Positions 5,449 to 63,996 of a stretch of 63,996 nucleotides of DNA are shown here, in pieces (position 1 is the stretch's first letter; each line of letters begins with the position of its first letter). The notes under the pieces are model-generated. The model was not told the origin of the DNA, did no database searches, and was given only the letters and a program-made list of their open reading frames with translations. This DNA is from Rhodopseudomonas infernalis (GTDB lineage Bacteria > Pseudomonadota > Alphaproteobacteria > Rhizobiales > Xanthobacteraceae). Where the stretch lies: assembly GCF_022271405.1 (NCBI RefSeq), contig NZ_JAJNAL010000030.1:1-63996 (forward strand), given 5' to 3'. The position numbers and the translations under genes were made by a program.

Positions 5449-5464
5449 GTCCGTGGGTGAATTA

Positions 5465-24525: not shown

Positions 24526-24551
24526 CGCCGCCCCATCCGCGTCCCCTCCCC

Positions 24552-24668
24552 GTCATTCCGGGGAGTGCGCGGAACGCGCACGAACCCGGAATCCCGCAGT
24601 TGTGGAAACCACTGAGTCGCAGAACACTTCGGGATTCCGGGTTCGCGCTTCGCGCGCCCCGGAATGAC
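24552..24668. repeat. Dispersed palindromic repeat R1
   Basis: GTCATTCCGGGGAGTGCGCG at the left and GCGCGCCCCGGAATGAC at the right. It has the same arms and spacing as the copies at 237, 4454 and 5225, and lies between purC and the enoyl-CoA hydratase gene. Confidence 0.85.
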
Positions 24669-24778
24669 AACCGCGGGGGGACCGCCTTTGATACTCATCA
24701 ACGTCGGCGGCTGAGCCGCAGTTGATATCCGCTCCAACCCCACCCGCCCCTGACCTCGCAAGACGACGGAGTTTCCGC

Positions 24779-27952: not shown

Positions 27953-28117
27953 GTCGCCCTCACCCCAACCCTCTCCCGCACGCGGGAGAGGGAGTTCGCT
28001 GTGCTTGGGGAGATGCGTACATCGAACGAGAGGGCGTTTCGGCAATCCATGAACGTCGCGCCGAGGCACGGCGCGCCCCCTCTCCCGCTTGCGGGAGAGG
28101 GTTGGGGTGAGGGCGAC
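27953..28117. repeat. R4 hairpin pair (CTCTCCCGC type), gene-less copy
   Basis: Two inverted R4 units. The left one reads GTCGCCCTCACCCC then CTCTCCCGCACGCGGGAGAG; the right one is the reverse complement form ending GGGGTGAGGGCGAC. About 80 bp of non-repeated sequence lies between. Other pairs are at 36376, 38913, 41662 and 42235. Confidence 0.9.
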
Positions 28118-28157
28118 GCGAGTCGTAAGCTAACGGCGGGGCGCGACGGCCTGACGC

Positions 28158-29600
28158 TCATCGCCACCAGGACGGCGTGCCGCTCGCCGTCGCCGGCGGG
28201 CGTTCGGGCTGACGCCGCGGTTCGCGGCGCTGCCTTTGCTTCCTCGCCGGCTTCTCCGCCTCAGGCTCCTTCACCGGGCCGATCCGTTTCAGCGCCGCGT
28301 CGGCGGCGCGTTCGCCGGAGTCCCAGGCGCCCTGCACGGTGCCCCACAGATCCTCGCTGGTGGCCTCGCCGGCGATCAGCAGATTGCCGAGCGGCTCGCC
28401 CAGCACCTTGCGGGACGGCTGCGCGCCGGGCGCCGCCGCCGACATCGCCCCCAGCACATACGGGTTGGCGTTCCAGCGCGTCACCGCCTGGCGCTCGACC
28501 GACCGGGCGATCTCGCTGCCGAACAGCTTGCCGAGCCATTCCAGCGCGAACGCCTGCATGGCGGCCTCGCCCTGCGCCGACAGATCGCGGCCGAAGCTGC
28601 CGGCGATGTCGACGACGCACAGCGATGAACCATTGATATTGGCATAGAGCGCGGCGGTGCGCGGGCCGCTGCTCTGCTCGATCAGCAGCTCGTCGCGCGA
28701 CAGCCCGAGCGGGTTGCCTTTGAACTGCAGCGCGATGCGATCGGTGCTGCCGAGCTGGAGCTTGCCGGCGGCGTCGAGCTGACGCTTCGGCAGCTCCGGC
28801 GTGAACTTGATCGCGCCCGAGCTCAGCACATTGGTGGACACGGTGAGGATCACCGCCTTGGCGGCGATGCGCCCCGCCGCGGTTTCGACCCCGGTGTCGC
28901 GGCCGTTCCAGACGATGCGGCTGACCGGCGTCGACGTCACCATCGGCAGCGGCGCCGCCAGCCGCGCCAGCAGCGTACCGAGGCCCTGGCGGGCGCCGGC
29001 CAGCGCGTTGCGATCCGGCGCGCGACTCTCGTCGCTCGCCGACAGATCCTTCAGGTCGGTGCCGCTGGCGTAGGGGCCGAGCACGTAGTCGATGGTCGGG
29101 CCCCACTCGCCGAGATCCTTCGGCAGCGCCGCCGCGCAGGCGACGTCGACCCTGCCGCGCGCCGCCTCGTCGATCGCGCGGCTGGCGCGCACCAGCGTCG
29201 CCAGATAGTCCTCGGTCTCGCGCGCACGCGCGTTGCGGCGGCCGATCCGGATCTTCTGCCCCGGCGGCGCCGGCACGATGTCGATGCCGACGCTGCGCGC
29301 CTGCTTGGCGATCGGGTTGCGGTCCGGATTGTGCAGAAACCGCGCGCCGCGATCGAACGGCGCCGCGAAGCTCTCGGTGTCGGTGACGCAGCGGCCGCCG
29401 GGCTGCGCCGCGGCCTCGACGATCAGCACCTTGCGGCCGGCCGCAACGATTCGCCGGGCGGCCGCGATGCCGGCAGCGCCGGCGCCGACCACCACGACGT
29501 CGACCTCGCGCGGCAACGCCGCGCGCGCCCGCGAGGCGAAAGCGGGCACCAGCACGAGGCCGGCCGAGGCCGTCAGGAAGCGGCGGCGGGAGATTGTCAT
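28158..29600 (-). CDS. Tat-exported FAD-dependent amine-oxidase-like protein
   Basis: A 480-aa flavoprotein. The start at ATG 29600 gives a twin-arginine signal (SRRRFLTASAGLVLVPAFAS). The Rossmann dinucleotide motif VVVGAGAAGIAAARRI is followed by VLIVEAAAQPGGRC, as in flavin monoamine oxidases. The C-terminal FAD segment is NLLIAGEATSEDLWGTVQGA. Family members oxidise amines or amino acids with O2 or a quinone. The last 35 residues are Arg/Pro-rich and look like a low-complexity tail. It diverges from the YiiX-type gene; the 301-bp gap between them shows no gene. Confidence 0.85.
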   Translation of the reverse strand: MTISRRRFLTASAGLVLVPAFASRARAALPREVDVVVVGAGAAGIAAARRIVAAGRKVLIVEAAAQPGGRCVTDTESFAAPFDRGARFLHNPDRNPIAKQARSVGIDIVPAPPGQKIRIGRRNARARETEDYLATLVRASRAIDEAARGRVDVACAAALPKDLGEWGPTIDYVLGPYASGTDLKDLSASDESRAPDRNALAGARQGLGTLLARLAAPLPMVTSTPVSRIVWNGRDTGVETAAGRIAAKAVILTVSTNVLSSGAIKFTPELPKRQLDAAGKLQLGSTDRIALQFKGNPLGLSRDELLIEQSSGPRTAALYANINGSSLCVVDIAGSFGRDLSAQGEAAMQAFALEWLGKLFGSEIARSVERQAVTRWNANPYVLGAMSAAAPGAQPSRKVLGEPLGNLLIAGEATSEDLWGTVQGAWDSGERAADAALKRIGPVKEPEAEKPARKQRQRREPRRQPERPPATASGTPSWWR

Positions 29601-29901
29601 GGCATGGTTTCCAAAGGCTTGTGCGGTCGCGGACAGAGCCGCGATCCTGGCGGGATCGCCGGCCGCTGCGTCTTGCTCAGTCTGCCGGTCGACCCCGTCA
29701 AAACCATGATCCCCTTGGGTTTCGCACCCCGTACCGAAGCCGCATCCGGTCGCCGCCGCCGCCAACTTGCCGGAATCGCTGCAGCGCGGCAACGGGCATG
29801 GTGAACGAGATGTCGCCGCGGTCCGGAACCGATGAACTAAATTGCAACCGCTGTGGCCAATCATCATTCAGGACACGCGAAGCCCCGGGCGGAGCAGACA
29901 G

Positions 29902-30789
29902 ATGGGTTTGGTGCTCGATGCGCTCGGCAAGATGATTGCCGGCTATCTGCAGAAGGAAGAACCCGGCTATGAGCCATTCACGCCGAGCGACCCCGATCAG
30001 TTGCGCACGATCCTGCAGCCCGGCGACGTGCTGCTGGTCGAGGGCAATGCGCGGATCTCCGGCATCATCAAATATCTGACGCAGTCGACCTGGTCGCACG
30101 CGGCGCTGTATGTCGGGCCGATCGACGGCGCCGCCGAGCCGGACGGCGAACCCCACGTGCTGATCGAGGCGAATATCGGCGAGGGCGTCTCGTCGTCGCC
30201 GCTGTCGCGGCATCTCGGCTATCACACCCGCGTGTGCCGGCCGGTCGGGCTATCCTTTGAGGATCGCCACACCGTGTGCCGCTACGCCATCAACCGGATC
30301 GGCTTCGGCTACGACACCAAGAACATCATCGACCTGATGCGTTACCTCGTTCCGCTGCCGGTGCCGCAGCGCTGGCGCCGGCGGATGATCGCGCTCGGCT
30401 CCGGCGATCCGACCAAGATCATCTGCTCGGCGCTGATCGCGCAGGCGTTCGATGCGGTGCGCTATCCGATCCTGCCGAAGATCACCAAGGCCGGCAGTCG
30501 CGCGGCGCGGCGCGAGATCCTGCACATTCGCGATTCCTCGCTGTACATGCCGCGCGACTTCGATATCTCGCCGTATTTCGAGGTCGTCAAGCCATCGATC
30601 GTGGGCGGCTTCGACTACACGACGCTGCATTGGGCCGACAAGCAGAAGCCGCTCGCGGAGACAGCGGGCCCGTTCACCACCTGCCAAGATCCCGTCGACC
30701 CGGCGCTGCTGCTTCGTGAAACGCCCGACGCGGAGACGCCGCAACGCGCCCCGGAGCTGACGCTGGCCGAGCCGTCTCACGAGCGATGA
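29902..30789 (+). CDS. YiiX/C92-type permuted papain-like hydrolase
   Basis: A 295-aa protein of the YiiX/YebB (peptidase C92, permuted NlpC/P60-like) family. The characteristic order is the His motif STWSHAALYVG (H66) first, then the acidic LIEANIGEG, then the nucleophile KIICSALIAQAF (C175). There is no signal peptide. The family cleaves amide or thioester bonds in lipid-linked or peptidoglycan-type substrates; the substrate here is unknown. The ATG at 29902 with GGAG upstream is chosen over one 20 codons earlier that lacks a ribosome site. The C-terminal 60 residues are Pro/Glu-rich and not conserved. Confidence 0.82.
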   Translation: MGLVLDALGKMIAGYLQKEEPGYEPFTPSDPDQLRTILQPGDVLLVEGNARISGIIKYLTQSTWSHAALYVGPIDGAAEPDGEPHVLIEANIGEGVSSSPLSRHLGYHTRVCRPVGLSFEDRHTVCRYAINRIGFGYDTKNIIDLMRYLVPLPVPQRWRRRMIALGSGDPTKIICSALIAQAFDAVRYPILPKITKAGSRAARREILHIRDSSLYMPRDFDISPYFEVVKPSIVGGFDYTTLHWADKQKPLAETAGPFTTCQDPVDPALLLRETPDAETPQRAPELTLAEPSHER

Positions 30790-30833
30790 ACCGAGAGCGA
30801 CTTTCCAGATCGCTCGATCAGCTAACAAATTCC

Positions 30834-30862
30834 GTCATGGCCGAGCTCGTTCCGGGCATGAC
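30834..30862. repeat. Short R2-type palindrome
   Basis: GTCATGGCCGAGCTCGTTCC followed by GGGCATGAC keeps the GTCATG/CATGAC ends of R2. It sits between the convergent YiiX-type and GGDEF-EAL genes. Confidence 0.6.
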
Positions 30863-30906
30863 GGGTGGAGACGGAATCGCCTGATTTCAATGGGTGCTTT
30901 TTCCGG

Positions 30907-33183
30907 TCAGGCTCTGAGGAGCCCGGCGCAGCCGGGCGTCTCCTCCGCTACGCGCGCGGAATCGCCCGCGGCGGCGGCGGTGCGCTGGAGTTCGAGCAGG
31001 CCGTTGATCTCGTCGTTCGGCCGCGCCGGGCTGAACAGGAAGCCTTGCGCTTCGTGGCAGCCTTCGGAGCGCAGCCAGCTCAGCTCGGCTTCGGTTTCGA
31101 CGCCTTCCGCCGTGATGGTGACGCCGAGCCCCATGCCGAGGCTGATGATGGCGCGGACGATCGCCTGCGAATCGCGGTTGTCGCACAGCCCGCGCACGAA
31201 CGACTGATCGATCTTGATCTTGTCGAACGGGAAGCTGCGCAGATAGCTCAGCGACGAATAGCCGGTGCCGAAATCGTCCATCGAGATCCGCACGCCGAGC
31301 GCCCGCAGCGCGTGCAGCGTGGCGATCACCTGGCTGCTCTTCTCGAGCAGCAGCGTCTCGGTGATCTCGAGTTCGAGCCGGCGCGGCGGCAGGCCGGATT
31401 GCTTCAGCGCGTCCATCACGGTCGCCATCAGATTGCCGACACGAAACTGCAGCGGCGACAGATTGACGGCGACGCAAACCTCGCCCGGCCAGCGCGCGGC
31501 ATCGAGGCAGGCCTGGCGCAGCACCTGGGCGCCGATCGCGTTGATCAGGCCGGTGTCCTCGGCGACCGGGATGAATTCCGCCGGCGAGATCATGCCGCGC
31601 TCCGGATGCGGCCAGCGCACCAGCGCCTCGCAGCCGGTGATACGCCCGCTCTCCAGCCCGATCAGCGGCTGGTAGTACGGCCGCAGCACATCATGGCGCA
31701 GCGCGGCGCGCAGATCGGTCTCGATCTTGCGCCGCGCCTGGGCGCGCGCGTCCATGCCGGGTTCGAAGAAGCTGAAGCTGCCGCGCGAATCCTTCTTGGC
31801 GCGCGACAGCGCCATGTCGGCGTTCATCAGCAGCTTCTCGGAATCGTCGCCGTCGAGCGGCGCCACCGCGATGCCGATGCTGGCGCTGGCGACCACCGAA
31901 TGGCCTTCGAGCAGATACGGTTCGGCGATCGCGTTGAGCAGCCGCTTGGCCAGCAGCGTGATGTCTTCGGGCCGCTTGATGCCGGTCTGGATCACGGCGA
32001 ATTCGTCGGAGTTGAGCCGCGCCAGCGGATCCTCCTCGCGCAGCGTCGAGCGCAGCCGCCGCGCGATGCCGCGCAGCAGCTTGTCGCCGACCGCGTGGCC
32101 GAGCGTGTCGTTGACCGCCTTGAAGTGATCGACGCCGATGAACAGCACGGCGATCTTCTCGCCGGTGCGCCGTGTCTGCGCCAGCAATTCGTCGAGCCGC
32201 TTGCGCAGCAGATTGCGGTTCGGCAGCCCGGTCAGGCCATCGTGATGCGCCATGAAGGCGAGCCGCATTTCAGCGCGCTTGCGCTCGGTGATGTCCATCA
32301 GGGCAAGCAGCACCGCAGGCTCGCCGTTGTAGATCAGCTGCCGCGCGTAGATCGCCAGATCGATCAGCGAACCATCGGCTTTGACGTGTTTCCAGGTCTT
32401 CGCCGCGCGCTCCTCGCTGCTGGCGTCGCCGGCCCACGGCAGTTCGGTCTCGAAAGCCTGCAGCCGGCGCAGCGTCAGTTCGGCGAACTCGGCCGGCGAA
32501 TAGCCGTAATGCTCGACGGCGGCCTCGTTGACGGCGAGGATGCGCTCGTTCTGCAACGCGCAGACGATCATCGGCACCGGATTGCTGTCGAACATCAGCC
32601 GGAACGAGGCCTCGCGCTGCTTCAGCTCGGTGATGTCGACGCGCAGGCCGATCACCCCGCCGTCGGAGGTGGTGCGTTCCTCGATCTGGATGCAGCGGCC
32701 ATCGGCCAGCACCTGCTCGTGGCTGTGGCCGGGATGAAACAGCCGGCGCATCCGCTCGGCGATCCATTCCTCCTCGTGGCCGATCGCCTCCGGGTAGTCG
32801 CCGCGCGCGACGCCGACCCGCATCGTGTCCCCGATCCGCGCGCCGGGTTTGAACAGATCGGCGCTCGCCTTGTAGATCTCGGCATAACGCTTGTTCCAGA
32901 GAATGTAGCGCCCTTCGGCATCGAGGAACACGATACCCTGCGGCAGGATGTCGATCGCCTCGCGCAACCGTTCATGCGATTTGCTCGCCTGCGCCAACGC
33001 CGCCGCAAGCGCGCCCTTGCGCTCGGCGACGACGGTCGGGCGCGGCCTCCGCTTCAACACCACCGACGACTTGACGGTCTTGGCGGCGGCTTTGACGCTG
33101 GCATTGGCGACGGAACGCTTCGATTCACGGCTGTGCGTACATCGCTTGGATGTCTTGTTGGTCCTCAGCCGGATCTGCGGCAT
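30907..33183 (-). CDS. PAS-GGDEF-EAL protein with degenerate GGDEF site
   Basis: A 758-aa cyclic-di-GMP protein with no membrane segments. The basic N-terminus (1-60) precedes two PAS units (about 70-185 and 192-300), a GGDEF domain (about 305-470) and an EAL domain (about 485-735). In the GGDEF domain the signature is NSDEF (391-395) instead of GG(D/E)EF, and the first metal-binding Asp is Gly (FIGVDHFK, G350), so cyclase activity is probably lost. The EAL domain looks intact: EALVRW (519-524), NLSPLQF, ELEITE, DDFGTGYSSLSYL and KIDQSF. It most likely hydrolyses c-di-GMP under PAS control, with the GGDEF part acting as a GTP sensor or scaffold. The 380-bp gap to mepA (33184-33563) holds no gene I can support. 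Confidence 0.9.
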   Translation of the reverse strand: MPQIRLRTNKTSKRCTHSRESKRSVANASVKAAAKTVKSSVVLKRRPRPTVVAERKGALAAALAQASKSHERLREAIDILPQGIVFLDAEGRYILWNKRYAEIYKASADLFKPGARIGDTMRVGVARGDYPEAIGHEEEWIAERMRRLFHPGHSHEQVLADGRCIQIEERTTSDGGVIGLRVDITELKQREASFRLMFDSNPVPMIVCALQNERILAVNEAAVEHYGYSPAEFAELTLRRLQAFETELPWAGDASSEERAAKTWKHVKADGSLIDLAIYARQLIYNGEPAVLLALMDITERKRAEMRLAFMAHHDGLTGLPNRNLLRKRLDELLAQTRRTGEKIAVLFIGVDHFKAVNDTLGHAVGDKLLRGIARRLRSTLREEDPLARLNSDEFAVIQTGIKRPEDITLLAKRLLNAIAEPYLLEGHSVVASASIGIAVAPLDGDDSEKLLMNADMALSRAKKDSRGSFSFFEPGMDARAQARRKIETDLRAALRHDVLRPYYQPLIGLESGRITGCEALVRWPHPERGMISPAEFIPVAEDTGLINAIGAQVLRQACLDAARWPGEVCVAVNLSPLQFRVGNLMATVMDALKQSGLPPRRLELEITETLLLEKSSQVIATLHALRALGVRISMDDFGTGYSSLSYLRSFPFDKIKIDQSFVRGLCDNRDSQAIVRAIISLGMGLGVTITAEGVETEAELSWLRSEGCHEAQGFLFSPARPNDEINGLLELQRTAAAAGDSARVAEETPGCAGLLRA

Positions 33184-33563
33184 TTCTACGCCCCACGCAA
33201 TCTGCGACTACGTTGTGCAATATGTGTCTGAAAAAAGGTGTAATGGAGCACGGGCGGGCCTCGGCTACCTGCTGCTTGGCAGCTCGGCAGCGCGGCTGCT
33301 CATTGGTGGAGCAACCGAATTGCCGAGTTTCGCGCAAGGCGGCCGCACTGACCGTTTCCGGACAGCTGTCAGAATGAGGTTTTGGGTATTTCTGTGCAGC
33401 CCATAGGCGCACCCGACCGATCAGACCAATTCTGCGCCAATGCCGAGAATGGTTGCCGGCCTCTTAACGGCGCGTCCGGGCGCGCCCGCTTCGTCCGTCA
33501 TGCGTACGCTGCCGCATCTCTGCCTGGCTGATTTTACCAGCCGAGTCGGCTATCATCGGGCCG

Positions 33564-34520
33564 ATGCATCGCCGATCGATTCCCCTCCGATTGTTACTTG
33601 CCGCCACGCTGCTCGGCAGCTCGGCCGCGGTTGCGTGCGCCCAGGACAGGGGCACGGTCAATCCGAAGCCGCTGCCGCCGCTCGCCAATCCGAACGACCC
33701 CGGCCTGCCGGCGCGCGAGCTGTTCGCCCGCAGATATCTGCCGGCGGCGTTGCCGCCGCGACCGATCGGGTTCTATGCCCATGGCTGCCTCGCCGGCGGC
33801 GAGGCGCTGCCGATCACCGGCAGGACCTGGCAGGTGATGCGGCTGTCGCGCAACCGCTACTACGCCTATCCGGCGATGGTCGATCTGGTGGCGCGGCTGT
33901 CCGCGAAGGCGCAGCGCGACGCCGGCTGGCCCGGCATTCTGGTCGGCGACATGTCGCAGCCGCGCGGCGGGCCGATGCTGACCGGCCATGCCAGCCATCA
34001 GGTCGGACTCGACGCCGACATCTGGCTGACGCCGATGCCGAACCGGCAGCTATCCCGCAACGAGCGCGAGGAGATGTCGGCGGTGATGATGGTACGGCCG
34101 GACCGGCTCGACATCGATCCCAAAGCCTGGACGCCGACCCACTGGAAAGTGATCCGCGCCGCCGCGCAGGAGCCGGCAGTCGAACGCATCTTCGTCAACG
34201 CGGCGATCAAGAAGGCGCTGTGCCGCGAGGCCAAGGGCGACCGCGGCTGGCTCGGCAAGGTGCGGCCGATGTGGGGGCACGACTATCACTTCCACATCCG
34301 GATTTCCTGTCCGCACGGCAGCCCGGGGTGCGAATCGCAGCCGGAGCCGCCGGCCGGCGAAGGCTGCGCGCCGGCGGACCTCGCCTATTGGTTCTCCGAC
34401 GCGGTGCTGCACCCGAAGCCGCCGAAAGAACCGCCGAAGCCCAAGAAGCCGCTGACGCTGGCGGACCTGCCGACCGAATGCCGCGCCGTCCTGGCGGCGC
34501 CTGATCAGCGGCCGGACTGA
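33564..34520 (+). CDS. mepA: Penicillin-insensitive murein endopeptidase
   Basis: A 318-aa LAS-type zinc peptidase cleaving D-Ala-mesoDAP cross-links in periplasmic peptidoglycan. It has a signal peptide ending near VACAQD. The zinc ligands are in MLTGHASHQVGLDADIWL and the C-terminal MWGHDYHFHIRI; FYAHGCLAGGEALP is a family segment. The tail after about residue 270 is Pro/Lys-rich. Its stop codon abuts the stop of the convergent antiporter gene with no bases between. Confidence 0.93.
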   Translation: MHRRSIPLRLLLAATLLGSSAAVACAQDRGTVNPKPLPPLANPNDPGLPARELFARRYLPAALPPRPIGFYAHGCLAGGEALPITGRTWQVMRLSRNRYYAYPAMVDLVARLSAKAQRDAGWPGILVGDMSQPRGGPMLTGHASHQVGLDADIWLTPMPNRQLSRNEREEMSAVMMVRPDRLDIDPKAWTPTHWKVIRAAAQEPAVERIFVNAAIKKALCREAKGDRGWLGKVRPMWGHDYHFHIRISCPHGSPGCESQPEPPAGEGCAPADLAYWFSDAVLHPKPPKEPPKPKKPLTLADLPTECRAVLAAPDQRPD

Positions 34521-36311
34521 TCAGACCCCCGACAGCGCGGTCCAGACCTTCGACAATTCGCGCTTCAGCTTCTGCGCGCGGGTCGGCGGGGCGTCGTCCT
34601 CGTCCTCGGGCAGCCGCAGGCCGACGACGTTGACCCTTCCGCCGCCGAGGCTGCGCGCCACCAGCACGATCGCATCCAGCTGCAGTTCGGCCCCCACGGT
34701 CGGCGCGCGGTCGAGGTGGATGTCGAAGTAGTCCGCCAGCGTCAGCGCCTCCTCGCCGGGCTTGACGCTGACCCCGTAGGCGCCGGCGAGGTCGCCGAGC
34801 GAGGTCTCGCCCGGCACCACGAAATCGCCGAGCAGATGCGGGTCGGGCGCGGCCGAGGGCGGCATGTCGACGAAGAAACGGTCGAGCGACTCGGCCTTTT
34901 CTGGCGGCGCCAGCAGATAAAGATAATCGCCGGGCGCGATCGGCTCGGCCTCCTCGGGCGTCAGGATCCGTTCGTCGCGGATCACCAGGGTCGGCTTCGA
35001 CCAGGACGGGATCAGCCCGCGCCTGAGATACAGGCTCTTGGCGCGCACCGGATAGCCGACTAGCTGCTGCTCGAGCTGGCCGGGCAGGTCGAGCTCGATA
35101 CGGCGCGGGCCGCGGTCGGTGCGCGGCAGCGCGACGTGCAGCTTGCGGGCCGCGGGTCCGAGCGTCCAGCCCTGCAGCAGCAGCGAGATGATCACCACCA
35201 CGAAGGCGACGTCGAAATACAGATACGCCTTCGGCAGCCCGACCAGCATCGGGATCGACGCCAGGAAGATCGCCACCGCGCCGCGCAAGCCCACCCAGGC
35301 GATGAACAGCCGCTCGCGCCAGTTGAAGCGGAACGGCGCCAGGCACAGGAACACCGCGGCGGGCCGCGCCACCAGCATCAGCACCAGCGCCACCAGGATC
35401 GCCGGCCCGACGCTGCCCATCAGCCGCTGCGGCGACACCAGCAGGCCGAGCAGCACGAACATCACGATCTGCGCCAGCCAGGTCGCGGCGTCGAGAAACG
35501 CCACCACCGAATTATGCGCGCGGGTCGGCTGATTGCCGATGATCATGCCGGCCAGATACACGGCGAGAAAGCCGGACGCGTGGGTGATCTGCGAGGCGCC
35601 GAACACGACCAGCGCCGCGGTGGTGACGAACGGCGCGTGCAGCCCCTGCGGCAGCGCCACGCGGTTCAGCGCCATCACCACGGCCCGGCCGCCGACCACG
35701 CCGATCAGTGCGCCGAGCGCCGCCTCGCGGACGAATTCGACGATGACATGCAGGGTCGAGCTTTCGCCGCGCGAGATCAGCTCGACCAGCATCAGGGTGA
35801 GAAACACCGCGAACGGATCGTTGGTGCCGGATTCGACCTCCAGCGTGGCGCCGACGCGGGGGCGCAGCCGCAGGCCTTGCGAATGCACCAGCAGGAACAC
35901 CGCGGCCGCATCGGTCGACGCCACCACGGCGCCGGCCAGCAGCGCCTCGGTCCAGTTGAGGTCGAGCGCGTAGCGCGCCACCGGCGCGGTGATCAGCGCC
36001 GTCACCAGCACGCCGAGCGTCGCCAGCCCCATCGACGGCGCCAGCACCGTCTTGATGCTGGAAAACCGCGTCCGCAATCCGCCGTCGAACAGGATCAGCG
36101 CCAGCGCCACCGAGCCGACCAGATAGGCGGTGCTGAGATCGTCGAATTTCAGCCCGCCCGGGCCGGACTCACCCGCCAGCATGCCGAGCAGCAGAAATAC
36201 CAGCAGCAACGGCGCGCCGAACCGCAGCGCCAGCAGGCTCGACAGGATCCCCGCCATCACCAGGATGGCGCCAAGCAGGATTGCGATGCTGACGGTGTCG
36301 AGCGACTCCAT
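34521..36311 (-). CDS. cvrA: Potassium/proton antiporter, CvrA/NhaP2 type
   Basis: A 596-aa CPA1-family antiporter with about twelve or thirteen helices (roughly 10-390). The ion-path motif ASTDAAAVFLLVHSQGL and VESGTNDPFAVFLTL are clear. Then come an RCK/TrkA-C regulatory segment (about 430-500, RIELDLPGQLEQQLVGYPVR) and a CorC/HlyC-like C-terminal domain. This domain order fits K+/H+ antiporters NhaP2/CvrA of E. coli and Vibrio. The ATG at 36311 begins MESLDTVSIAILLG just before helix 1. Confidence 0.9.
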   Translation of the reverse strand: MESLDTVSIAILLGAILVMAGILSSLLALRFGAPLLLVFLLLGMLAGESGPGGLKFDDLSTAYLVGSVALALILFDGGLRTRFSSIKTVLAPSMGLATLGVLVTALITAPVARYALDLNWTEALLAGAVVASTDAAAVFLLVHSQGLRLRPRVGATLEVESGTNDPFAVFLTLMLVELISRGESSTLHVIVEFVREAALGALIGVVGGRAVVMALNRVALPQGLHAPFVTTAALVVFGASQITHASGFLAVYLAGMIIGNQPTRAHNSVVAFLDAATWLAQIVMFVLLGLLVSPQRLMGSVGPAILVALVLMLVARPAAVFLCLAPFRFNWRERLFIAWVGLRGAVAIFLASIPMLVGLPKAYLYFDVAFVVVIISLLLQGWTLGPAARKLHVALPRTDRGPRRIELDLPGQLEQQLVGYPVRAKSLYLRRGLIPSWSKPTLVIRDERILTPEEAEPIAPGDYLYLLAPPEKAESLDRFFVDMPPSAAPDPHLLGDFVVPGETSLGDLAGAYGVSVKPGEEALTLADYFDIHLDRAPTVGAELQLDAIVLVARSLGGGRVNVVGLRLPEDEDDAPPTRAQKLKRELSKVWTALSGV

Positions 36312-36375
36312 CGCACTGGTGTAGCCGAGCGACCCGCCGCTGTCGTCCCTATCGTCGCACAGGCGCTGTGCTTGC

Positions 36376-36536
36376 GTCGCCCTCACCCGCCCCCTCCCCC
36401 GCACGCGGGGGAGGGGGCTCGCCGTGCAGGGGGAGAGGGCTTTTGTTTAGAACTATGCAGACGCCCCGCATCGCAGCAGGCTCCCTCTCCCGCGTGCGGG
36501 AGAGGGCTGGGGTGAGGGCGCCCCAGGCACTGAGCT
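36376..36536. repeat. R4 hairpin pair, gene-less copy
   Basis: The left unit is GTCGCCCTCACCCGCCCC plus a CCCCCGCACGCGGGGG hairpin; the right unit is CTCTCCCGCGTGCGGGAGAG plus GGGGTGAGGGCGCCCCAGGC and ACTGAGCT. The right-hand extension matches, inverted, the left extension of the copy at 38913. It lies between the antiporter and MscS genes. Confidence 0.9.
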
Positions 36537-36600
36537 ACTGGTCCAAATCACGGACGCCCGGTAAGAGAAAGTCGCCATCCAGCGGAGCGCGGCGCGGACG

Positions 36601-37914
36601 ATGATCGATCTGACACAGGCTTACGAGGCGCTGCTGGGGGCGGCGAGCTCGATCGGCGCGGAATTCACCTCGCCCTGGTTCTACACCCAGCTCGGCATGA
36701 TCATCGCGGCGCTCGGCGTCGGCCATGGCGGCGGCGCCCTGATCAAGGCGCGGGTCGACATGCCCCGGCTGACGATGGGCTGGCCGGCGCCGCTGCGGAT
36801 GTTTCTACGGGTGGTGGTCGACAGCGCCTGGACGGCGATTTTCGCCGTGGTGGTGATCGCCATTCGGCTGGTGATGCTGCAGGCGACCTGGCCGAGCCGC
36901 AGCTACCTGATCGGCATCTCGGCCAAGCTGGCGCTGGCCTGGCTGGTGATCCGGCTGGTCACCAGCATCCTGCGCAACGCGTTCCTGATCCGGGTGGTGT
37001 CGGTGTCGGCCTGGTGCATCGCCGCGCTCAGCATCGTCGGGCAGCTGTTTCCGGTACTCGAAGCGCTCGACTCCGTCGCGATCGTGGTCGGCGATCTGCG
37101 GCTGTCGCCGCTGCTGGTGCTGAAGCTCACCGTGCTGCTGGCGGTGGCGCTGTGGCTCGCCAATATCGGCAGCAATTTTTTCGAAGGCCGCATCAAGCAG
37201 ACCGCCGATCTGACGCCTTCGATTCAAGTGCTGCTGATCAAGCTGATGCGGATCGGCCTGATGGTGGCGGCGATCGCGCTGGTGATGAGCGCGGTCGGCA
37301 TCAACCTGCAGGCGCTGGCGGTGTTCTCCGGCGCGGTCGGCGTCGGCATCGGCTTCGGCCTGCAGAAGATCTTCGGCAATTTCATCTCCGGCGTGATCCT
37401 GCTGGCCGACAAGTCGGTCAAGCCCGGCGACCTCGTCACCATCGGCGACAGCTCCGGCCGGATCAGCGCGATGAACACCCGCTACATTTCGGTCGCCGCC
37501 GGCGACGGCCGCGAGTTCCTGATCCCCAACGAGGACCTGATCACCCAGAAGGTGGTGAACTGGACCTACACCGACAAGAACACGCTGGTGAAGGTCGCCT
37601 TCGCCACCAATTACGATGCCGATCCGCGCATCGTCTGCAAGCTGGCGGTCGAGGTCGCGGCGGCGGTGCCGCGGGCGTCCAAGACCAAGCCGCCGGGCTG
37701 CATCCTGACCGAATTCACCGACACCGGCATGAAGTTCGCGCTGACGTTCTGGATCGCCGAACCCGACGGCATGGACGGCGTCAGGAGCGAGGCGATGCTC
37801 GGGCTGTGGGACGCGTTCAAGCGCGAGGGCATCCGCGTTCCCTATCCGGTGCGCGAATTGCGGGTGCGCGGCGGCGCGCTGCCGGTCGAGACCATCGTCG
37901 AGACGCCGCAATAA
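36601..37914 (+). CDS. MscS-family mechanosensitive channel
   Basis: A 437-aa membrane channel with about four extra N-terminal helices (40-200). Next come the pore-lining helix with the glycine/alanine pattern LAVFSGAVGVGIGFGLQKIF (about 240-259) and the beta domain (GNFISGVILLADKSVKPGDL, IPNEDLITQKVVNW). These are hallmark MscS motifs; the channel opens on membrane tension to release solutes. Its length matches medium-size YnaI/YbdG-like members. The terminator hairpin overlaps its stop codon. Confidence 0.93.
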   Translation: MIDLTQAYEALLGAASSIGAEFTSPWFYTQLGMIIAALGVGHGGGALIKARVDMPRLTMGWPAPLRMFLRVVVDSAWTAIFAVVVIAIRLVMLQATWPSRSYLIGISAKLALAWLVIRLVTSILRNAFLIRVVSVSAWCIAALSIVGQLFPVLEALDSVAIVVGDLRLSPLLVLKLTVLLAVALWLANIGSNFFEGRIKQTADLTPSIQVLLIKLMRIGLMVAAIALVMSAVGINLQALAVFSGAVGVGIGFGLQKIFGNFISGVILLADKSVKPGDLVTIGDSSGRISAMNTRYISVAAGDGREFLIPNEDLITQKVVNWTYTDKNTLVKVAFATNYDADPRIVCKLAVEVAAAVPRASKTKPPGCILTEFTDTGMKFALTFWIAEPDGMDGVRSEAMLGLWDAFKREGIRVPYPVRELRVRGGALPVETIVETPQ

Positions 37915-37942
37915 GCGGCTCCGGGCTCGCCCGGAGCCGCTT
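37913..37942 (+). terminator. Strong hairpin overlapping the MscS stop codon
   Basis: A perfect 13-bp stem (AAGCGGCTCCGGG / CCCGGAGCCGCTT) with a CTCG tetraloop begins inside the TAA codon. There is no long T tract, but the stem is very stable. Confidence 0.7.
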
Positions 37943-38012
37943 CGGCTTGCGTGCGGCGCCGTGATGACTAGATTGCATGAATCCTTCCCGTTCCCCGAAC
38001 CAGACCGGCCCG

Positions 38013-38837
38013 ATGAGCTACGTGGACGCCTCCGACGCCGCCCTCCGCAAGACAGGGCAGATCAAATTGCACGGCGCCGCCGGCTTCGCCGGCATGCGCA
38101 AGGCCGGCCAGGTCGTGGCGCAGTGCCTCGACGAGCTGGTCGACATCGTGAAGCCCGGCGTGCCGACGTCGCGGATCGACGATTTCGTGCGCGACTTCGC
38201 CTTCAGCCACGGCGCCTTCCCGGCGACGCTGATGTATCGCGGCTATCGCTATTCGACCTGCACGTCGATCAATCACGTGGTCTGCCACGGCATGCCGGGC
38301 GACCGGCCGCTGAAGGAAGGCGACATCGTCAATGTCGACGTCACCATGATCGTCGACGGCTGGTACGGCGATTCGAGCCGCATGTACCCGATCGGCCCGA
38401 TCGCCCGTAAGGCCGAGCGGCTGATCGACGTCACCTACGAGTCGCTGCTGCGCGGCATCGCAGCCGTGAAGCCGGGCGCCACCACCGGCGACATCGGGCA
38501 TGCGATCCAGAGCTTCGTCGAACCGCAGCAGATGACCGTGGTGCGCGACTTCTGCGGTCACGGCCTCGGCCGGCTGTTCCACGACGAGCCGAACATCATC
38601 CACGTCGGCAGCCCCGGCCAGGGCGCGGTGCTCAAGCCCGGCATGTTCTTCACCATCGAGCCGATGATCAATCTCGGCAAACCCTATGTGAAGATCCTGT
38701 CCGACGGCTGGACCGCCGTGACCCGCGACCGCTCGCTGTCGGCGCAGTTCGAGCACTCGATCGGCGTGACGGAAACCGGCTGCGAGATTTTTACGCTGTC
38801 GCCCAAGGGCCTCGACAAGCCACCATTCGTGAGCTGA
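38013..38837 (+). CDS. map: Methionine aminopeptidase, type I
   Basis: A 274-aa enzyme removing N-terminal Met from new proteins. The metal site is complete: His in CHGMPGDRPLK; Asp in VNVDVTMIVDGWYGDSSR; His in FCGHGLGRLFHDEPNI; Glu in FFTIEPMIN; and Glu in QFEHSIGVTE. The start MSYVDASDAALRKTGQIKLHG matches the short N-terminus of alphaproteobacterial MetAP. An ATG 12 codons upstream (37977) is possible; neither has a clear ribosome site. It lies upstream of a cluster of nested repeats. Confidence 0.94.
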   Translation: MSYVDASDAALRKTGQIKLHGAAGFAGMRKAGQVVAQCLDELVDIVKPGVPTSRIDDFVRDFAFSHGAFPATLMYRGYRYSTCTSINHVVCHGMPGDRPLKEGDIVNVDVTMIVDGWYGDSSRMYPIGPIARKAERLIDVTYESLLRGIAAVKPGATTGDIGHAIQSFVEPQQMTVVRDFCGHGLGRLFHDEPNIIHVGSPGQGAVLKPGMFFTIEPMINLGKPYVKILSDGWTAVTRDRSLSAQFEHSIGVTETGCEIFTLSPKGLDKPPFVS

Positions 38838-38850
38838 GTTCGTCGACCAT

Positions 38851-38905
38851 GTAGGGTGGGCGACGATGTAGGGTGGGCAAAGGCGCGCAGCGCCGTGCCC
38901 ACGCG
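38851..38905. repeat. R3 left arms (one truncated, one full)
   Basis: A truncated GTAGGGTGGGC unit is followed 17 bp later by a full left arm (GTAGGGTGGGCAAAGGCGCG ... GTGCCCACG). The matching right arm is displaced to 39154-39183 by an R4 pair. Confidence 0.85.
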
Positions 38906-38912
38906 CGCCATC

Positions 38913-39120
38913 AGCTCACTGCCTGGGGCACCCTCACCCCACCCCTCTCCCGCAAGTGGGAGAGGGAGCAGGCTGCCTGCGGAGAGAGGCTGTGCGCTAT
39001 CCTTGAGACAAAACGATCAGCTCTGAGACCGAGATCATCACTCGCCCCCTCCCCGCGCACGGCGAGCCCCCTCTCCCGCTTGCGGGAGAGGGTTGGGGTG
39101 AGGGCGACGCGGGCACTGAG
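38913..39120. repeat. R4 hairpin pair inserted inside R3
   Basis: It begins AGCTCACTGCCTGGGGCACC then CTCACCCC and a CTCTCCCGCAAGTGGGAGAG hairpin. It ends with CTCTCCCGCTTGCGGGAGAG, GGGGTGAGGGCGAC and GGCACTGAG. An extra CCCCTCCCCGCGC segment lies inside. It sits precisely between the two arms of an R3 element. Confidence 0.9.
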
Positions 39121-39153
39121 GTCGTTACTTCAACGCCGCAGCCCCCTGCTCCG

Positions 39154-39183
39154 CGTGGGCACGCTTCGCTTTGCCCACCCTAC
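39154..39183. repeat. R3 right arm
   Basis: CGTGGGCACGCTTCGCTTTG continuing to GCCCACCCTAC, complementary to the left arm at 38868-38905. It ends 7 bp before the pheT stop codon. Confidence 0.85.
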
Positions 39184-39189
39184 GGATAA

Positions 39190-41598
39190 CTAACCGCGCA
39201 GCGTGCCGCCGGTTTTCTTCGTCACTTCCGCCACGATCTTGGCGCCGACGGCGTCGATCTCCGAATCCGTCATGGTCTTGTCGCGCGGCTGCAGCGTCAC
39301 GGCGATCGCCACCGACTTCTTGTCGGGATCGATACCCTTGCCCTCATAGACGTCGAACACGCCCACGGACGTAATCAGCTTCTTGTCGACGCCCTGCGCG
39401 GCGCGGACCAGATCGGCGGCCGCGACCTTGCGGTCGACGATGAAGGCGAAGTCGCGCGACACCGGATGGAACGCCGACAACTCCAGCGCCGGCTTGGCGC
39501 GGGTCGGGCGCTGCTTGGCGTCGGGGATCTTGTCGAGGATCACTTCGAACGCCACCAGCGGGCCAGCGGCGTGCAGCTGCTCGAGCACGCGCGGATGCAG
39601 CTCGCCGAAGTAACCGAGCACGTTCTGCGGCCCGATCTGGATCGCGCCGGAGCGGCCCGGATGCAGCCACGCCGGCAGCTTGTTAGTGGCGATCTGCAGC
39701 CCCGCCATCGGCGCGCCGGCCGCGGCCAGCACCGCGAACGCATCCGCCTTGGCGTCGAGCGCGGACGCCGGCGCAGAGCCCGACCAGTGCCGGCCGAGCC
39801 CGGCCGACGAGGCGACGCCGCGGCGTACGCCGCTGGCCGCAATGAACTGATCCTGCGGCCGGTCACCCTTGAAGATCTGCCCGACCTCGAACAGCGCCAG
39901 ATCCGGGAAGCCGCGATCGGCATTGGCCTGCGCTGAAGCGATCAGCCCGGGCAGCAGGCTCGGCCGCATGTCGGACAGATCCGACGCGATCGGATTGGCC
40001 AGCGACAATTCGGGCTGACCGCCACCGAACAGCTCGGCCGCCGGTTTGGCGATGAACGACCAGGTCACCGCTTCGGTGAGGCCGCGCGCCGCCAGCGCGC
40101 GCTTGGCGCGGCGGGTGCGGGTCTGGATCTGGGTCAGCACCGGCTTGCGGGGAGTCTCGCCGCGGTCGAACGGCGTCATCGGCACCTTGTCGACGCCGAC
40201 GATGCGGACGATTTCCTCGACGATGTCGGCCTTGCCGTGGACGTCGCTGCGCCACGACGGCACCGCCACCTTCACCACCGCGCCGGTGCCGGCCACCATG
40301 AAGCCGAGCTGCGTCAGGATGCGGCGCGCTTCGGTGAACGACACTTCGATGCCGGCGAGCCGCTTCACTTCGCTGAGCGGGAAGTCGATGACCCGGTCTT
40401 CGCCGAACGCATTGCCGACGACGATCGCCTCCGACGGCGTGCCGCCGCAGAATTCCATCACCAGCCTGGTGGCGAGATCGAGCCCCGGCACCATGAAGGC
40501 CGGATCGACGCCGCGCTCGAAGCGATAGCGCGCGTCGGTGTTGATCCCGAGCCGGCGGCCGGTCTGGGCGATGTTGATCTCGTTCCACAGCGCCGATTCG
40601 ATCAGCACGTCGGTGGTCTCGGCCGAGCAGCCGGACGCTTCGCCGCCCATGATGCCGGCGAGCGATTCGACGCCATGCTCATCGGCGATGACGCAGACGT
40701 TGTTATCAAGCGTGTAGGTGCGACCGTCGAGCGCCAGCAGCGTCTCGCCATCCCTGGCGCGGCGCACCACGAGGTTGCCCTTCACCTTGGCGGCGTCGAA
40801 CACGTGCAGCGGGCGGCTCCGGTCGAACGTCAGGTAGTTGGTGATGTCGACCAGCGCGTTGATCGGGCGCAGCCCGATCGCGGCGAGCCGCTTCTGCAGC
40901 CACTCCGGCGACGGCCCGTTCTTGACGCCCTTCACCAGCCGCAGCGCGAAGCCGGGGCACAGCTTGGTGTCCTCGACCGTCACGCTCACCGGGCACGGGA
41001 ACTCGCCCTTGATCGGCTTGACCGACGGATCCTTGAACTTGCCCATGCCGGCGGCGGCGAGATCGCGCGCGATGCCCGACACGCCGGCGCAATCCTGCCG
41101 GTTCGGCGTCAGATTGATATCAAGCACCGGATCGCCGAGCCCGGCCCAGGCCGCATAGGCGGCGCCGACCGGCGCATCGGCCGGCAGCTCGATGACGCCG
41201 TCGTGATCCTCGGAGATTTCGAGTTCGGCCGCCGAGCACATCATGCCGCGGCTTTCGACGCCGCGAATATTGCCGATGCCGAGCGTGAAATCCTTCGCCG
41301 GGATGTAGGTGCCGGGCGCCGCGAACACGGTGAGGAGACCCGCCCGCGCATTCGGCGCGCCGCACACCACCTGCACCGGCGCGCCCTCGCCGGTGTCGAC
41401 GCTGCAGACCTGCAGCTTGTCGGCGTTCGGATGCTTCTCGGCAGTGAGCACCTTGGCGATCGTGAACGGCGCCAGCGCCTTGGCCTTGTCCTCGATGCCC
41501 TCGACCTCGAGCCCGATCATGGTGAGCTTGTCGGCAAGCGCACCCAGTTGCTCGTCGGTGTCGAGATGATCTTTCAGCCAGGAGAGGGTGAGTTTCAT
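39190..41598 (-). CDS. pheT: Phenylalanyl-tRNA synthetase beta subunit
   Basis: An 802-aa subunit that pairs with PheS as an alpha2-beta2 enzyme charging tRNA-Phe. The N-terminal [18 protein letters not shown] and the EMAP-II-like tRNA-binding domain (about 40-150, [17 protein letters not shown]) lead into the B3/B4 editing domain ([14 protein letters not shown]) and B5 domain. The core is catalytic-like, and the C-terminal anticodon-binding FDX-ACB domain ([19 protein letters not shown]) closes the protein. It is transcribed from the same strand as pheS but separated from it by nearly 900 bp carrying a DUF559 gene and repeats. Confidence 0.96.
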
Positions 41599-41661
41599 CG
41601 GTTGTTACTTCCGTCTGGCGCAGTGCGTGGATCGTTCTTTGTCGAGAAGCTGTGCCGCGCG

Positions 41662-41830
41662 TCGCCCTCACCCCAACCCTCTCCCGCAAGCGGGAGAGGG
41701 AGTCGGCCGTGCCGAATGGAGAGGCGGCGGGTCATGCGGTTAGTCCGAACTATCTGGTGTAGGCCGCGGCTTGGCCGCGCGCGCGGCGCGCTCCCTCTCC
41801 CGCTTGCGGGAGAGGGTTGGGGTGAGGGCC
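41662..41830. repeat. R4 hairpin pair on the 3' side of DUF559 gene 1
   Basis: The left unit is GTCGCCCTCACCCCAACC plus a CTCTCCCGCAAGCGGGAGAG hairpin. The right unit has the inverted form ending GGGGTGAGGGCC at 41830. The right unit encodes the C-terminal residues (LTPTLSRKRERE) of the DUF559 protein on the minus strand. Confidence 0.92.
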
Positions 41831-42216
41831 CTTGCGGCGAGCTCAGTCGCAATGCTCTGCAACACCCCGTCACGATTGTTCATCACGTCGGCATTGCTGA
41901 GGCGGATCACCCGAAACCCGCGCGCCTCGATCGCCGCCGTGCGAGCCGCATCGGCGCGCTCGGCATCGTCGGAATAGTGCTGACCGCCGTCGAGCTCGAC
42001 CACCAGCTTCTTCGCATGGCAGGCGAAGTCCGCGATGAACGGCCCGATCGGGACCTGACGCTTGAATGAAAAGCCATCGAGCTGCTTGTCGCGCAGCGCC
42101 GCCCACATCAGCCGCTCGGCGTCGGTCGACTTCTTCCGCAGCTCGCGCGCGTGGCGGCGCTGGCCCGGAGATACATTCCAGGTCGGTTTCGGCGTCGGCT
42201 GCTTCGGATCGTCCAT
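41740..42216 (-). CDS. DUF559 (Vsr-like) endonuclease-domain protein 1
   Basis: A 158-aa protein of the DUF559 family, distantly related to the very-short-patch-repair nuclease fold. The N-terminal helix RRHARELRKKSTDAERLMW is followed by the putative PD-(D/E)xK core: ADFACHAKKLVVELDGGQH, with D63, E74, D76 and H80 in place. I choose the ATG at 42216; upstream codons would translate the R4 repeat. Residues 131-158 are encoded by the R4 repeat at 41787-41830 and flanking DNA, so the tail is repeat-derived. The gene splits the pheS-pheT pair. Nuclease activity is predicted from fold only. The second copy (61850-62245) has the same arrangement with a different repeat subtype. Confidence 0.88.
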   Translation of the reverse strand: MDDPKQPTPKPTWNVSPGQRRHARELRKKSTDAERLMWAALRDKQLDGFSFKRQVPIGPFIADFACHAKKLVVELDGGQHYSDDAERADAARTAAIEARGFRVIRLSNADVMNNRDGVLQSIATELAARALTPTLSRKRERERAARAAKPRPTPDSSD

Positions 42217-42234
42217 CGCAAGCTCCGTCCCCGT

Positions 42235-42417
42235 GTCGCCCTCACCCCACCCCTCTCCCGCAAGCGGGAGAGGGAGCGCGCCGTGCGCAATGGCGAGGTC
42301 TTCAATCATCTCGACGACAAATCTTTTCAACTAGCCGACAGCGTTTGAGCAATGAGCTCCCGCAAGCGCGGCCTGCTCCCTCTCCCGCTTGCGGGAGAGG
42401 GCTGGGGTGAGGGCGAC
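42235..42417. repeat. R4 hairpin pair on the 5' side of DUF559 gene 1
   Basis: GTCGCCCTCACCCCACCC with a perfect CTCTCCCGCAAGCGGGAGAG hairpin starts 18 bp upstream of the DUF559 ATG. The inverted right unit ends GGGGTGAGGGCGAC at 42417. Its tail sequence faces the gene, as does that of the pair on the other side. Confidence 0.92.
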
Positions 42418-42476
42418 GCGAGTCGCAGCTTCAACGTCCAGCCGGACAAGCGCACTAGCGCCAGCGAATACCAAAC

Positions 42477-43559
42477 TCACGAACTCAATCCGCCCGCCAG
42501 CGACGGAATATCCAGCGGCTTGAAGCCGTAGTGATTGAGCCACCTTGCGTCGGCTTCGAACAGCTGCCGCAGATCGCTCATGCCGTATTTCAGCATCGCG
42601 ATGCGGTCGATGCCCATGCCCCAGGCGAAGCCCTGGTACACGTCGGGATCGAGGCCGCAGGCGGTGAGCACGTTGGGGTGCACCATGCCGCAGCCGAGAA
42701 TCTCCAGCCAGTCCTCGCCCTCGCCGAACCGGATCTCGTCCTTGCCGCGGCGGCACTGGATGTCGACTTCCAGCGACGGCTCGGTGAACGGGAAGAACGA
42801 CGGCCGGAACCGCATGTTGACGTTGTCGACCTCGAAGAACGCCTTGCAGAATTCGTGCAGGATCCACTTCAGGTGACCGAGATGGCTGCCCTTGTCGATG
42901 ACGAGGCCTTCGACCTGATGAAACATCGGCGTGTGAGTCTGATCGCTGTCGCTGCGATAGGTGCGGCCCGGACAGATCACGCGGATCGGCGGCTTCTGGC
43001 TCAGCATGGTGCGGACCTGCACCGGCGAGGTGTGAGTCCGCAGCAACAGGCGCGAGCCGTCTTCCTTCGGGTTGAAGTAGAAGGTGTCGTGCATCTCGCG
43101 GGCCGGATGGCCCTCGGGGAAGTTCAGCTTGGTGAAGTTGTAGTCGTCGGTCTCGATGTCCGGACCTTCGGCGACCGCAAAGCCCATGTCGGCGAAGATC
43201 GTCGTAACCTCGTCCCACACCTGGCTGAGCGGATGAAGCCGGCCGGCCTCCGCCAGCGGCTCGCGCAGCGGCAGCGTGACGTCGATGGTCTCGGCCGCCA
43301 GCTTGGCGTCGAGCGCTGCAGCCTTGAGCACGTCGCGGCGCGCGGTGAGCGCTTCGTTGACGGCATCCTTGGCGCGATTGATCGCGGCGCCTTCGGTCTT
43401 GCGCTGCTCGGGGTCCATCTTGCCGAGCGTGGCAAGCAGCGCCGAGACGGAGCCCTTCTTGCCGAGCGCGCCGACGCGCACCGCCTCGAGCGCAGCCTCA
43501 TCGGAGGCGGCGGCGATATCGGCGAGGATCTGGGTTTGCAAAATAGAGAGGTCGGTCAT
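42477..43559 (-). CDS. pheS: Phenylalanyl-tRNA synthetase alpha subunit
   Basis: A 360-aa class II synthetase subunit holding the active site. An N-terminal coiled coil (1-90) is followed by motif 1 ([13 protein letters not shown] region), motif 2 ([14 protein letters not shown]) and [12 protein letters not shown]. Motif 3 is [18 protein letters not shown] near the C-terminus. It forms an operon with the downstream pheT despite the inserted DUF559 module, and rplT lies upstream on the same strand. Confidence 0.96.
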
Positions 43560-61849: not shown

Positions 61850-62245
61850 CTAACTCCCCTCCCCCCGCTCTTGCGGCGGGGAGGGGTCGGGGGTGGGGGG
61901 AGCCGCGCGCACAGCGTCTACGATGCTCTGCATCACGCCCTCGATGTTCTGCAGGACATCGTTATTCCAGAAACGCAGCACGCGGTAGCCCGCAGTATTG
62001 AGATAGTTCGTTCGAACGACATCGGCGGCCGATCCATCGTGCTGGCCGCCGTCGATTTCAATGACGAGGCGGAGGGCATGGCAGGCAAAGTCCGCAAAGT
62101 ATGGGCCGATCGTCGCCTGTCGGCGAAAATGGGCCTCGCCGAATGCGGGGCGACGCAGTCGTTGCCACAGCTTCCGCTCGGCGTCCGTCGGATTTTGACG
62201 GAGGCTCCGAGCGCGTGGGATCCGGTGGTCGACTGTGCGTGCCAT
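61850..62245 (-). CDS. DUF559 (Vsr-like) endonuclease-domain protein 2
   Basis: A 131-aa relative of the protein at 41740-42216. The start MARTVDHRIPRARSLRQNPT is followed by the helix DAERKLWQRL and the core ADFACHALRLVIEIDGGQH with D52, E63, D65 and H69. The two proteins are clearly homologous but differ at roughly half of the aligned core positions. Residues about 116-131 (PTPDPSPPQERGEG) are encoded by the R5 repeat. The gene ends 3 bp before ugpA and sits between ugpB and ugpA. Activity is predicted from fold only. Confidence 0.88.
   Translation of the reverse strand: MARTVDHRIPRARSLRQNPTDAERKLWQRLRRPAFGEAHFRRQATIGPYFADFACHALRLVIEIDGGQHDGSAADVVRTNYLNTAGYRVLRFWNNDVLQNIEGVMQSIVDAVRAAPPTPDPSPPQERGEGS
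61854..61904. repeat. R5 hairpin repeat at the 3' end of DUF559 gene 2
   Basis: CTCCCCTCCCCCCGCTCTTG, CGGCGGGGAGGGG and then the tail TCGGGGGTGGGGGGAGCC, which faces the gene. It is an inverted copy of 62262-62310. It encodes the protein's C-terminus and provides the ugpA ribosome site. Confidence 0.9.
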
Positions 62246-62261: not shown

Positions 62262-62310
62262 GGCCCCCCCACCCCCGACCCCTCCCCGCCGCAAGGGCGG
62301 GGGGAGGGGG
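62262..62310. repeat. R5 hairpin repeat at the 5' end of DUF559 gene 2
   Basis: GGCCCCCCCACCCCCGACCC then CTCCCCGCCGCAAGGGCGGG and GGGAGGGGG. Its tail faces the DUF559 start codon 17 bp away. With 61854-61904 it makes a pair of about 50-bp terminal inverted repeats enclosing the gene. Confidence 0.9.
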
Positions 62311-63786: not shown

Positions 63787-63875
63787 CTAAGCCGTCTTGC
63801 GGCGGCGCAGCAGGAACCCGGCAGCGGATCCGCGATCGGGGTCCGCGATGATGTTGATCTCGGCCGAACAGCCGG

Positions 63876-63880
<5 letters not shown>
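63787..63880 (-). CDS. Possible 3' end of a truncated gene
   Basis: On the minus strand an open frame ends at TAG (63787-63789) and reads CSAEINIIADPDRGSAAGFL then LRRRKTA before the stop. It looks protein-like but runs into the G-rich artefact, so only about 30 residues are visible. No family is recognised. The gap 63659-63786 before it must contain the ugpB promoter. Confidence 0.25.

Positions 63881-63996
<116 letters not shown>

Follow-up and report, generated by a model that had tools for sequence, protein, structure and literature searches.

Short DUF559 nuclease genes between inverted, triplex-motif hairpin repeats that diverge with the nuclease

Two bracketed nuclease genes in Rhodopseudomonas infernalis

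The window, a stretch of 63,996 nucleotides of Rhodopseudomonas infernalis DNA, contains two genes for DUF559 nucleases, both with clean translations on the reverse strand. P0001 (41740..42216, 158 aa) sits between pheS and pheT, both of which match their own Pfam domains, and P0002 (61850..62245, 131 aa) has genes for a transport permease and a solute-binding protein as its Pfam-identified neighbours. Both proteins belong to PF04480 (DUF559), with E values of 3.1e-36 and 4.1e-37 and scores of 124 and 126.8 bits, respectively, against a gathering score of 20.6.

Four units of a hairpin repeat, R4, surround P0001 in the layout pair, gene, pair, with a second R4 beyond each inner one. The inner units have their tails toward the gene: one lies within the coding sequence on its 3′ side (41793..41828, forward strand), where translation shows that it encodes LTPTLSRKRERE, and the other lies on its 5′ side (42239..42274, reverse strand). 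The outer units, like the 5′ inner one located by hairpin scan and R4 pattern, complete a pheT-side pair (41665..41700, reverse strand, with the hairpin at 41677-41700 followed by the tail) and a pheS-side pair (42378..42413, forward strand). P0002 is bracketed by a different repeat, R5, again with both tails toward the gene, and the sequence and hairpin scan place one copy within the 3′ end of the coding sequence (61856..61900, forward strand; hairpin 61856-61886 plus a G-rich tail) and one upstream (62265..62309, reverse strand; hairpin at about 62279-62309). The 3′ repeat extends into each reading frame, and the C-terminus of both proteins is repeat-encoded. The original prediction had described this arrangement, namely an R4 pair on each side of P0001, mutually inverted nearest units facing the gene, a repeat-encoded C-terminus and the same geometry with R5 at P0002, and each element of it was recovered. 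It had also assigned both proteins a D...E-x-D...H core, which agrees with the invariance of D63, E74, D76 and H80 in an alignment of 59 sequences.

In the window units the tails read GGGGTGAGGG (R4) and TCGGGGGTGGGG (R5), and no GTAG tag stands beside the hairpin. Three gene-less R4 pairs, recorded without strand and all with outward tails, were found by hairpin scan and R4 pattern at 27957..28113, 36380..36518 (its left unit has diverged and lies outside the R4 pattern) and 38931..39104. Such hairpins occupy 5 of the 35 window gaps, two of the five belonging to the P0001 gene, and Rfam gave 0 matches in 41500-42600. Of the 92 R4 matches in the genome, nine fall in the 14.5 kb at 27957-42413, where the diverged unit makes a tenth, and another contig (C53) has 6 R4 matches within about 16 kb. 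Palindromic repeats of a further family, with GTCATTCCGGGGCGC at their ends, occur at 220-357, 4482-5450 and 24535-24673 and perhaps correspond to the CGTC-tagged repeats described in the available part of PMC3733652. The long poly-C/poly-G low-complexity stretches at 1-200 and 63872-63996 are nearly complementary and probably assembly artefacts.

Flanking hairpins and nuclease-repeat co-divergence

Short DUF559 genes are generally flanked by hairpins. Pooling three locus sets, with five double-entry loci (L122, L172, L178, L214 and L223) and nine edge cases removed, we counted 223 distinct genes, of which 180 are bracketed by hairpins, 32 have them on one side and 11 on neither; by comparison, hairpins occur in 8 of 108 other intergenic gaps, a small control set taken from the same loci away from the DUF559 gene. 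This difference is not due to chance, and the prospect that DUF559 homologues at large lack such hairpins, which the original prediction had named as its own counter-evidence, is not borne out for the short subfamily. The hairpin filter was set initially at 85% purine/pyrimidine, which missed arms with inner GC (69 genes flanked on both sides, 31 on one, 14 on none; n = 114), and was relaxed to 70% after that result was known (92, 20 and 2; n = 114). The controls were mostly coding windows at the 85% filter (3/444), then intergenic gaps (2/20, later the 8/108).

The first set of 116 loci combined 7 from the same genome as the window, 29 among the best listed places of a PF04480 search and 80 chosen by coordinates; 114 exceeded the score limit, and of the 113 left after one edge case 91 were bracketed by hairpins, 20 had them on one side and 2 on neither. 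The second set comprised 80 loci from named genomes, taken as best matches to nine flanked family genes and hence biased to this subfamily; after removal of 6 edge cases, 56 of 74 were flanked on both sides, 11 on one and 7 on none. By record titles, many of them those of MAGs, the second set spans alpha-, beta- and gammaproteobacteria, Deltaproteobacteria, Nitrospirae, Dehalococcoidia and Gastranaerophilales, and some of its loci have flanks of 32-43% GC; the association reaches far beyond Rhodopseudomonas. Four of its hairpin-free loci (L133, L144, L155 and L189) carry flanking inverted matches with raw scores of 64, 252, 61 and 52.

PF04480 is present in 138 of 149 genomes of a family sample. 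Of the 7 matches in the R. infernalis genome, the 5 to short genes are all bracketed by hairpins, every gene with its own hairpin type. Across 16 Rhodopseudomonas genomes there are 88 DUF559 matches, of which the 61 scoring at least 99 bits could all be typed (59 flanked, 57 on both sides); from the other 27, which are weaker and longer proteins, we looked at L006 and L007 alone, weaker matches in longer frames of the R. infernalis genome, and both are hairpin-free. A two-hairpin-type DUF559 gene in that genome (L002, G000:C3:141866-142180) has an in-frame TAA near its C-terminus, and the genome keeps 54 matches to the repeat pattern.

In 230 of 237 genes, duplicates included, the repeat could be typed, and the more alike two proteins are, the more alike are their repeats. 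When repeats were shuffled among paralogues of the same genome, the correlation of 0.61 dropped to 0.04 (sd 0.025) and was reached in 0 of 500 shuffles (114 genes, 37 genomes). It remained at 0.28 for pairs below 70% identity and at 0.13 below 60%, each with 0/500 within-genome shuffles. We also dropped pairs with homologous outer flanks to remove inheritance at one site, and the remaining pairs, which are non-independent, gave r = 0.27 versus -0.007 (sd 0.025; 0/500). Among pairs at different sites, a shared repeat was found in 26% of 425 at 60-65% identity, 68% of 104 at 65-70% and 92% of 39 at 70-80%. For one nuclease (L101), all of the best 20 matches, counting itself and reaching down to 53% identity, have an adjacent ACCCTCCCC-type hairpin; among the next 10 loci this type occurs only in L294 and L298, in the latter as an extra unit beside its own type. 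The co-divergence postulated from the two window genes is strong and holds after within-genome shuffling and restriction to different sites. Nuclease and repeat almost certainly belong together.

The repeat as a triplex motif, its gene-less copies and their number

The bracketed units have a compact geometry, with a median of 454 bp between outer hairpin edges (quartiles 439 and 472; 186 genes). The tail faces the gene in 346 flanks and the outer side in 23, with 15 tied. In 49 of 54 tests, against 22 expected, the two copies flanking a gene were, within their genome, each other's best match. Allowing A to stand for A or T, we found a tail that mirrors the 3′ arm without a mismatch in 318 of 388 flanks, and where the arms are asymmetric (n = 254) mirror relations number 207 and direct ones 61. 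True tails scored 0.916 as mirrors versus 0.759 (sd 0.007) for tails dealt to other loci (397 flanks), so stem and tail change together. A tail that mirrors the 3′ arm and changes with it identifies the flanking unit as the published intrastrand triplex motif (TM, earlier PIT), which has a pyrimidine arm, a purine arm and a mirror-related third strand; our units have all three, by a comparison with the TMECO table made by eye.

According to the available part of Holder et al. 2015 (PMC4666352), TMECO consists of these three strands, forms a stable triplex in vitro and is found in >260 genomes; a stable triplex in vivo is described there as without support, and transposases or integrases as never found around E. 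coli TM sites. The DUF559 flanks share this architecture and have near-identical sequence, for example CCCTCTCCCTGTGGGAGAGGGCCGGGGTGAGGG. They differ from what that part of the article covers, which reports no mobility gene at the E. coli sites, in their link to DUF559 and in the further sequence types found here.

Two-hairpin types carry, between arm and tail, an additional hairpin of variable sequence, which in this position would act as a structured linker. Its sequence varies freely, even within one genome (for example L339-L357), and it seemingly stays paired. Stem mismatches read on the tail strand comprise 28 of T-G or G-T, 11 of C-A or A-C and 30 others, many of them orthologous, a pattern that mildly favours the tail strand as the folding strand.

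Gene-less pairs also occur outside the window. We read 16 of the ACCCTCCCC type, of 137-170 bp, in G024, G105, G086, G122 and G064 (one genus code) and G014 (another), in the order stem, CG, variable hairpin, GGGGTGGGGTGA-like tail and short spacer, followed by the whole inverted. One G105 locus, L348, has a DUF559 frame between ends like those of the 16 pairs, as compared by eye. The pairs relate to L348 as a miniature to its element, and in this one repeat type gene-less copies share the ends of the putative autonomous element, as in MITEs. The gene-less R4 pairs have outward tails, and the ACCCTCCCC pairs and four E. coli pairs that we read have inward ones; as tail direction differs by repeat type, no single definition of the unit covers every type.

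At the pheS-pheT site, pair-gene-pair with R4 was found in 13 of 16 Rhodopseudomonas genomes, so no hopping of the R4 gene is seen there. In the remaining genomes, the G149 gap holds a different DUF559 gene (L317) with a different repeat, the G125 gap holds unrelated sequence with no hairpins, and G089 yielded no gap.

R4 with its tail (at most 2 mismatches) matches the R. infernalis genome 92 times, and the reversed pattern 0 times. In Rhodopseudomonas it numbers 27-115 in the 13 genomes with the R4 gene and 0, 1 and 20 in the three without (exact one-sided p = 0.0018 over 16 genomes, kinship ignored). In the family sample 5 genomes, all Rhodopseudomonas, have an orthologue with 82% identity or more, and they contain 31-113 R4 copies; the other 144 have at most 20, and 119 have 0. 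The contrast is weaker for the two-hairpin type, whose median is 58 copies in the 5 genomes with the gene (in one of them with a stop) versus 26 in 11 without, by a pattern whose palindromic core counts some copies twice. For the ACCCTCCCC type, two flanking copies being subtracted, the median is 5 where the clade is present (21 genomes) versus 0 in 128 without. The original prediction had singled out equal repeat numbers in gene-free genomes as evidence against it. Copies are indeed fewer without the cognate gene, but there are exceptions without a detected one (two-hairpin type, 74 in G155, 48 in G067, 47 in G028 and 41 in G150; ACCCTCCCC type, 67 in G053), and the contrast is confounded by lineage.

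E. coli offers a further comparison. In MG1655, ycjD is annotated as DUF559 and is 46% identical to P0002; the PF04480 panel was silent for E. coli and therefore has misses. Near K-12 ycjD a single clear TM lies about 170 bp downstream, and the hairpin on the upstream side is a different one; TM copy number is higher in E. coli with ycjD; this contrast and that in Rhodopseudomonas follow lineage (E. coli groups and sister genomes, respectively). Strains lacking ycjD were considered as empty sites and set aside, as the three read, in all of which the match ends at query base 123 and one of which is O157:H7 FRIK944, have a TetR/RND operon beside fabI. At the alx-sstT site three strains have a hairpin scar and appear to have lost the TM pair rather than never to have had one, so the gene may serve to keep existing repeats and not to multiply them. 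The gcvP-ygfF site shows a larger deletion, the best 20 rows for a Cedecea query in E. coli match the neighbouring bcsG gene only, and no clean pre-insertion site was found among the E. coli sites examined.

A nuclease that may act on its own repeat

Structural comparison by VIA-align placed the predicted fold of the DUF559 proteins closest to the homing endonuclease I-Bth0305I and to Vsr, that is, a predicted Vsr/EDxHD-type fold. Among relatives with a solved structure and a known function, the homing endonuclease is the nearest; its sequence relation to DUF559 is weak, and the predicted structure conforms to the EDxHD fold of I-Bth0305I (PDB 3r3p; PMC3943268, in the part available). The difference from that system lies in the DUF559 gene being solitary between inverted repeats. 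One genome paper, in its available part, places a DUF559 gene under EDxHD (PMC9403480). The fold is also common to E. coli Vsr and Caulobacter VsrA, and the available text of the VsrA study (PMC12907096) describes a DUF559 domain in VsrA, proposes a role in T:G mismatch repair and leaves palindromes unmentioned. PADLOC gave only weak matches (E 0.002 to 0.09), to other proteins, and was rejected as a lead.

RAYT/REP/REPIN systems (Bertels and Rainey 2011, PMC3116915, available part) likewise have hairpin repeats as dispersed inverted doublets with a gene near its own type. They differ in the enzyme, an HUH tyrosine transposase unrelated to DUF559, in the tail, which here mirrors a stem arm, and in the GTAG tag, which R4 and R5 lack. 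No HUH Y1 transposase lies between the repeats, where the bracketed gene is DUF559. A RAYT was considered as the partner of R4 and rejected, since the sole Y1_Tnp match of the R. infernalis genome (L241, G000:C41; 26.2 bits, at a contig end) lies beside an R4 pair and is not bracketed. CGTC-tagged REPs, in the available part of PMC3733652, are abundant alphaproteobacterial palindromes without transposase genes, as here, and have a different sequence tag.

We propose, with a probability of about 0.6, that TM/PIT repeats have their cognate enzymes in the short solitary DUF559 proteins and that the nuclease acts on and spreads its repeat. The gene-bearing unit would be a nuclease reading frame between two inverted triplex-forming repeats, and the gene-less inverted pairs (about 85-175 bp) would be its dispersed non-autonomous copies. 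Where DNA is exposed as a single strand, as at a replication fork, the protein would recognise and nick the hairpin or triplex of its cognate repeat, and host repair or replication would then copy or conserve the nicked repeat. Such a cycle would therefore work in the manner of RAYT/REPIN, with a metal-dependent hydrolytic nuclease in place of the HUH tyrosine enzyme; by this analogy the system is RAYT/REPIN-like in its presumed working and not a RAYT/REPIN member. No transposition event was seen at the loci and sites examined.

The same nicking could serve upkeep alone, if a nuclease that nicks its own repeats forces recombinational repair or gene conversion and so keeps copies and flanks alike, spread being rare or otherwise caused. 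We consider this unlikely; by itself it leaves unexplained both the many dispersed copies of each type and the presence of gene-bearing units with one repeat type at separate places in the chromosome. A selfish, homing-like gene, which cuts repeat loci and is copied in by repair, with the repeats as landing sites and remnants, would fit the sequence and fold relation to I-Bth0305I and the different DUF559/repeat unit in the G149 pheS-pheT gap. It accords poorly with flanking copies that are inverted with tails inward, each unit having its own repeat type, since homing into one repeat would be expected to split it or leave direct halves, and we regard it as improbable.

Two further readings detach the nuclease from the repeat. 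The Vsr-like fold and the Caulobacter VsrA study (PMC12907096, available part) would suit VSP-type mismatch-repair enzymes beside which the repeats are incidental insulators or leftovers, a reading with quite poor prospects: repeats of that kind would show no co-divergence with the nuclease, either against within-genome shuffles or between different sites. That another enzyme, such as a RAYT, spreads the repeats and DUF559 genes are passengers draws on the one Y1_Tnp match adjoining an R4 pair, but this is a single gene with R4 on one side only, whereas each of five DUF559 genes is bracketed by a repeat type of its own and repeat type follows DUF559 sequence; we give this reading hardly any credence.

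The proposal of cognate, repeat-spreading nucleases has a wider form, to which we give an even chance: short DUF559 proteins, YcjD included, may be the autonomous enzymes of bacteria-wide minimal mobile elements with triplex ends, a second, independent RAYT-like solution that uses a hydrolytic homing-type nuclease and is the origin of TM/PIT in >260 genomes. If true, this would be a kind of mobile element with three-stranded DNA ends and an enzyme that is not a transposase. No paper among the matches listed linked DUF559 to palindromic, REP or triplex repeats, in a search whose coverage mostly excludes subscription papers and preprints. The mirror third-strand form of the tail, the reach beyond the genus and the homing-endonuclease relative are additions to the original prediction. 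The repeat link gives a widespread domain of unknown function a hypothesis of function, and the presence of ycjD in E. coli K-12 makes the origin and upkeep of TM/PIT repeats testable. Downstream of K-12 ycjD, at about 2740-2908 of the locus (L358), lies a partial duplication of the ycjD C-terminal region with degenerate repeat remnants.
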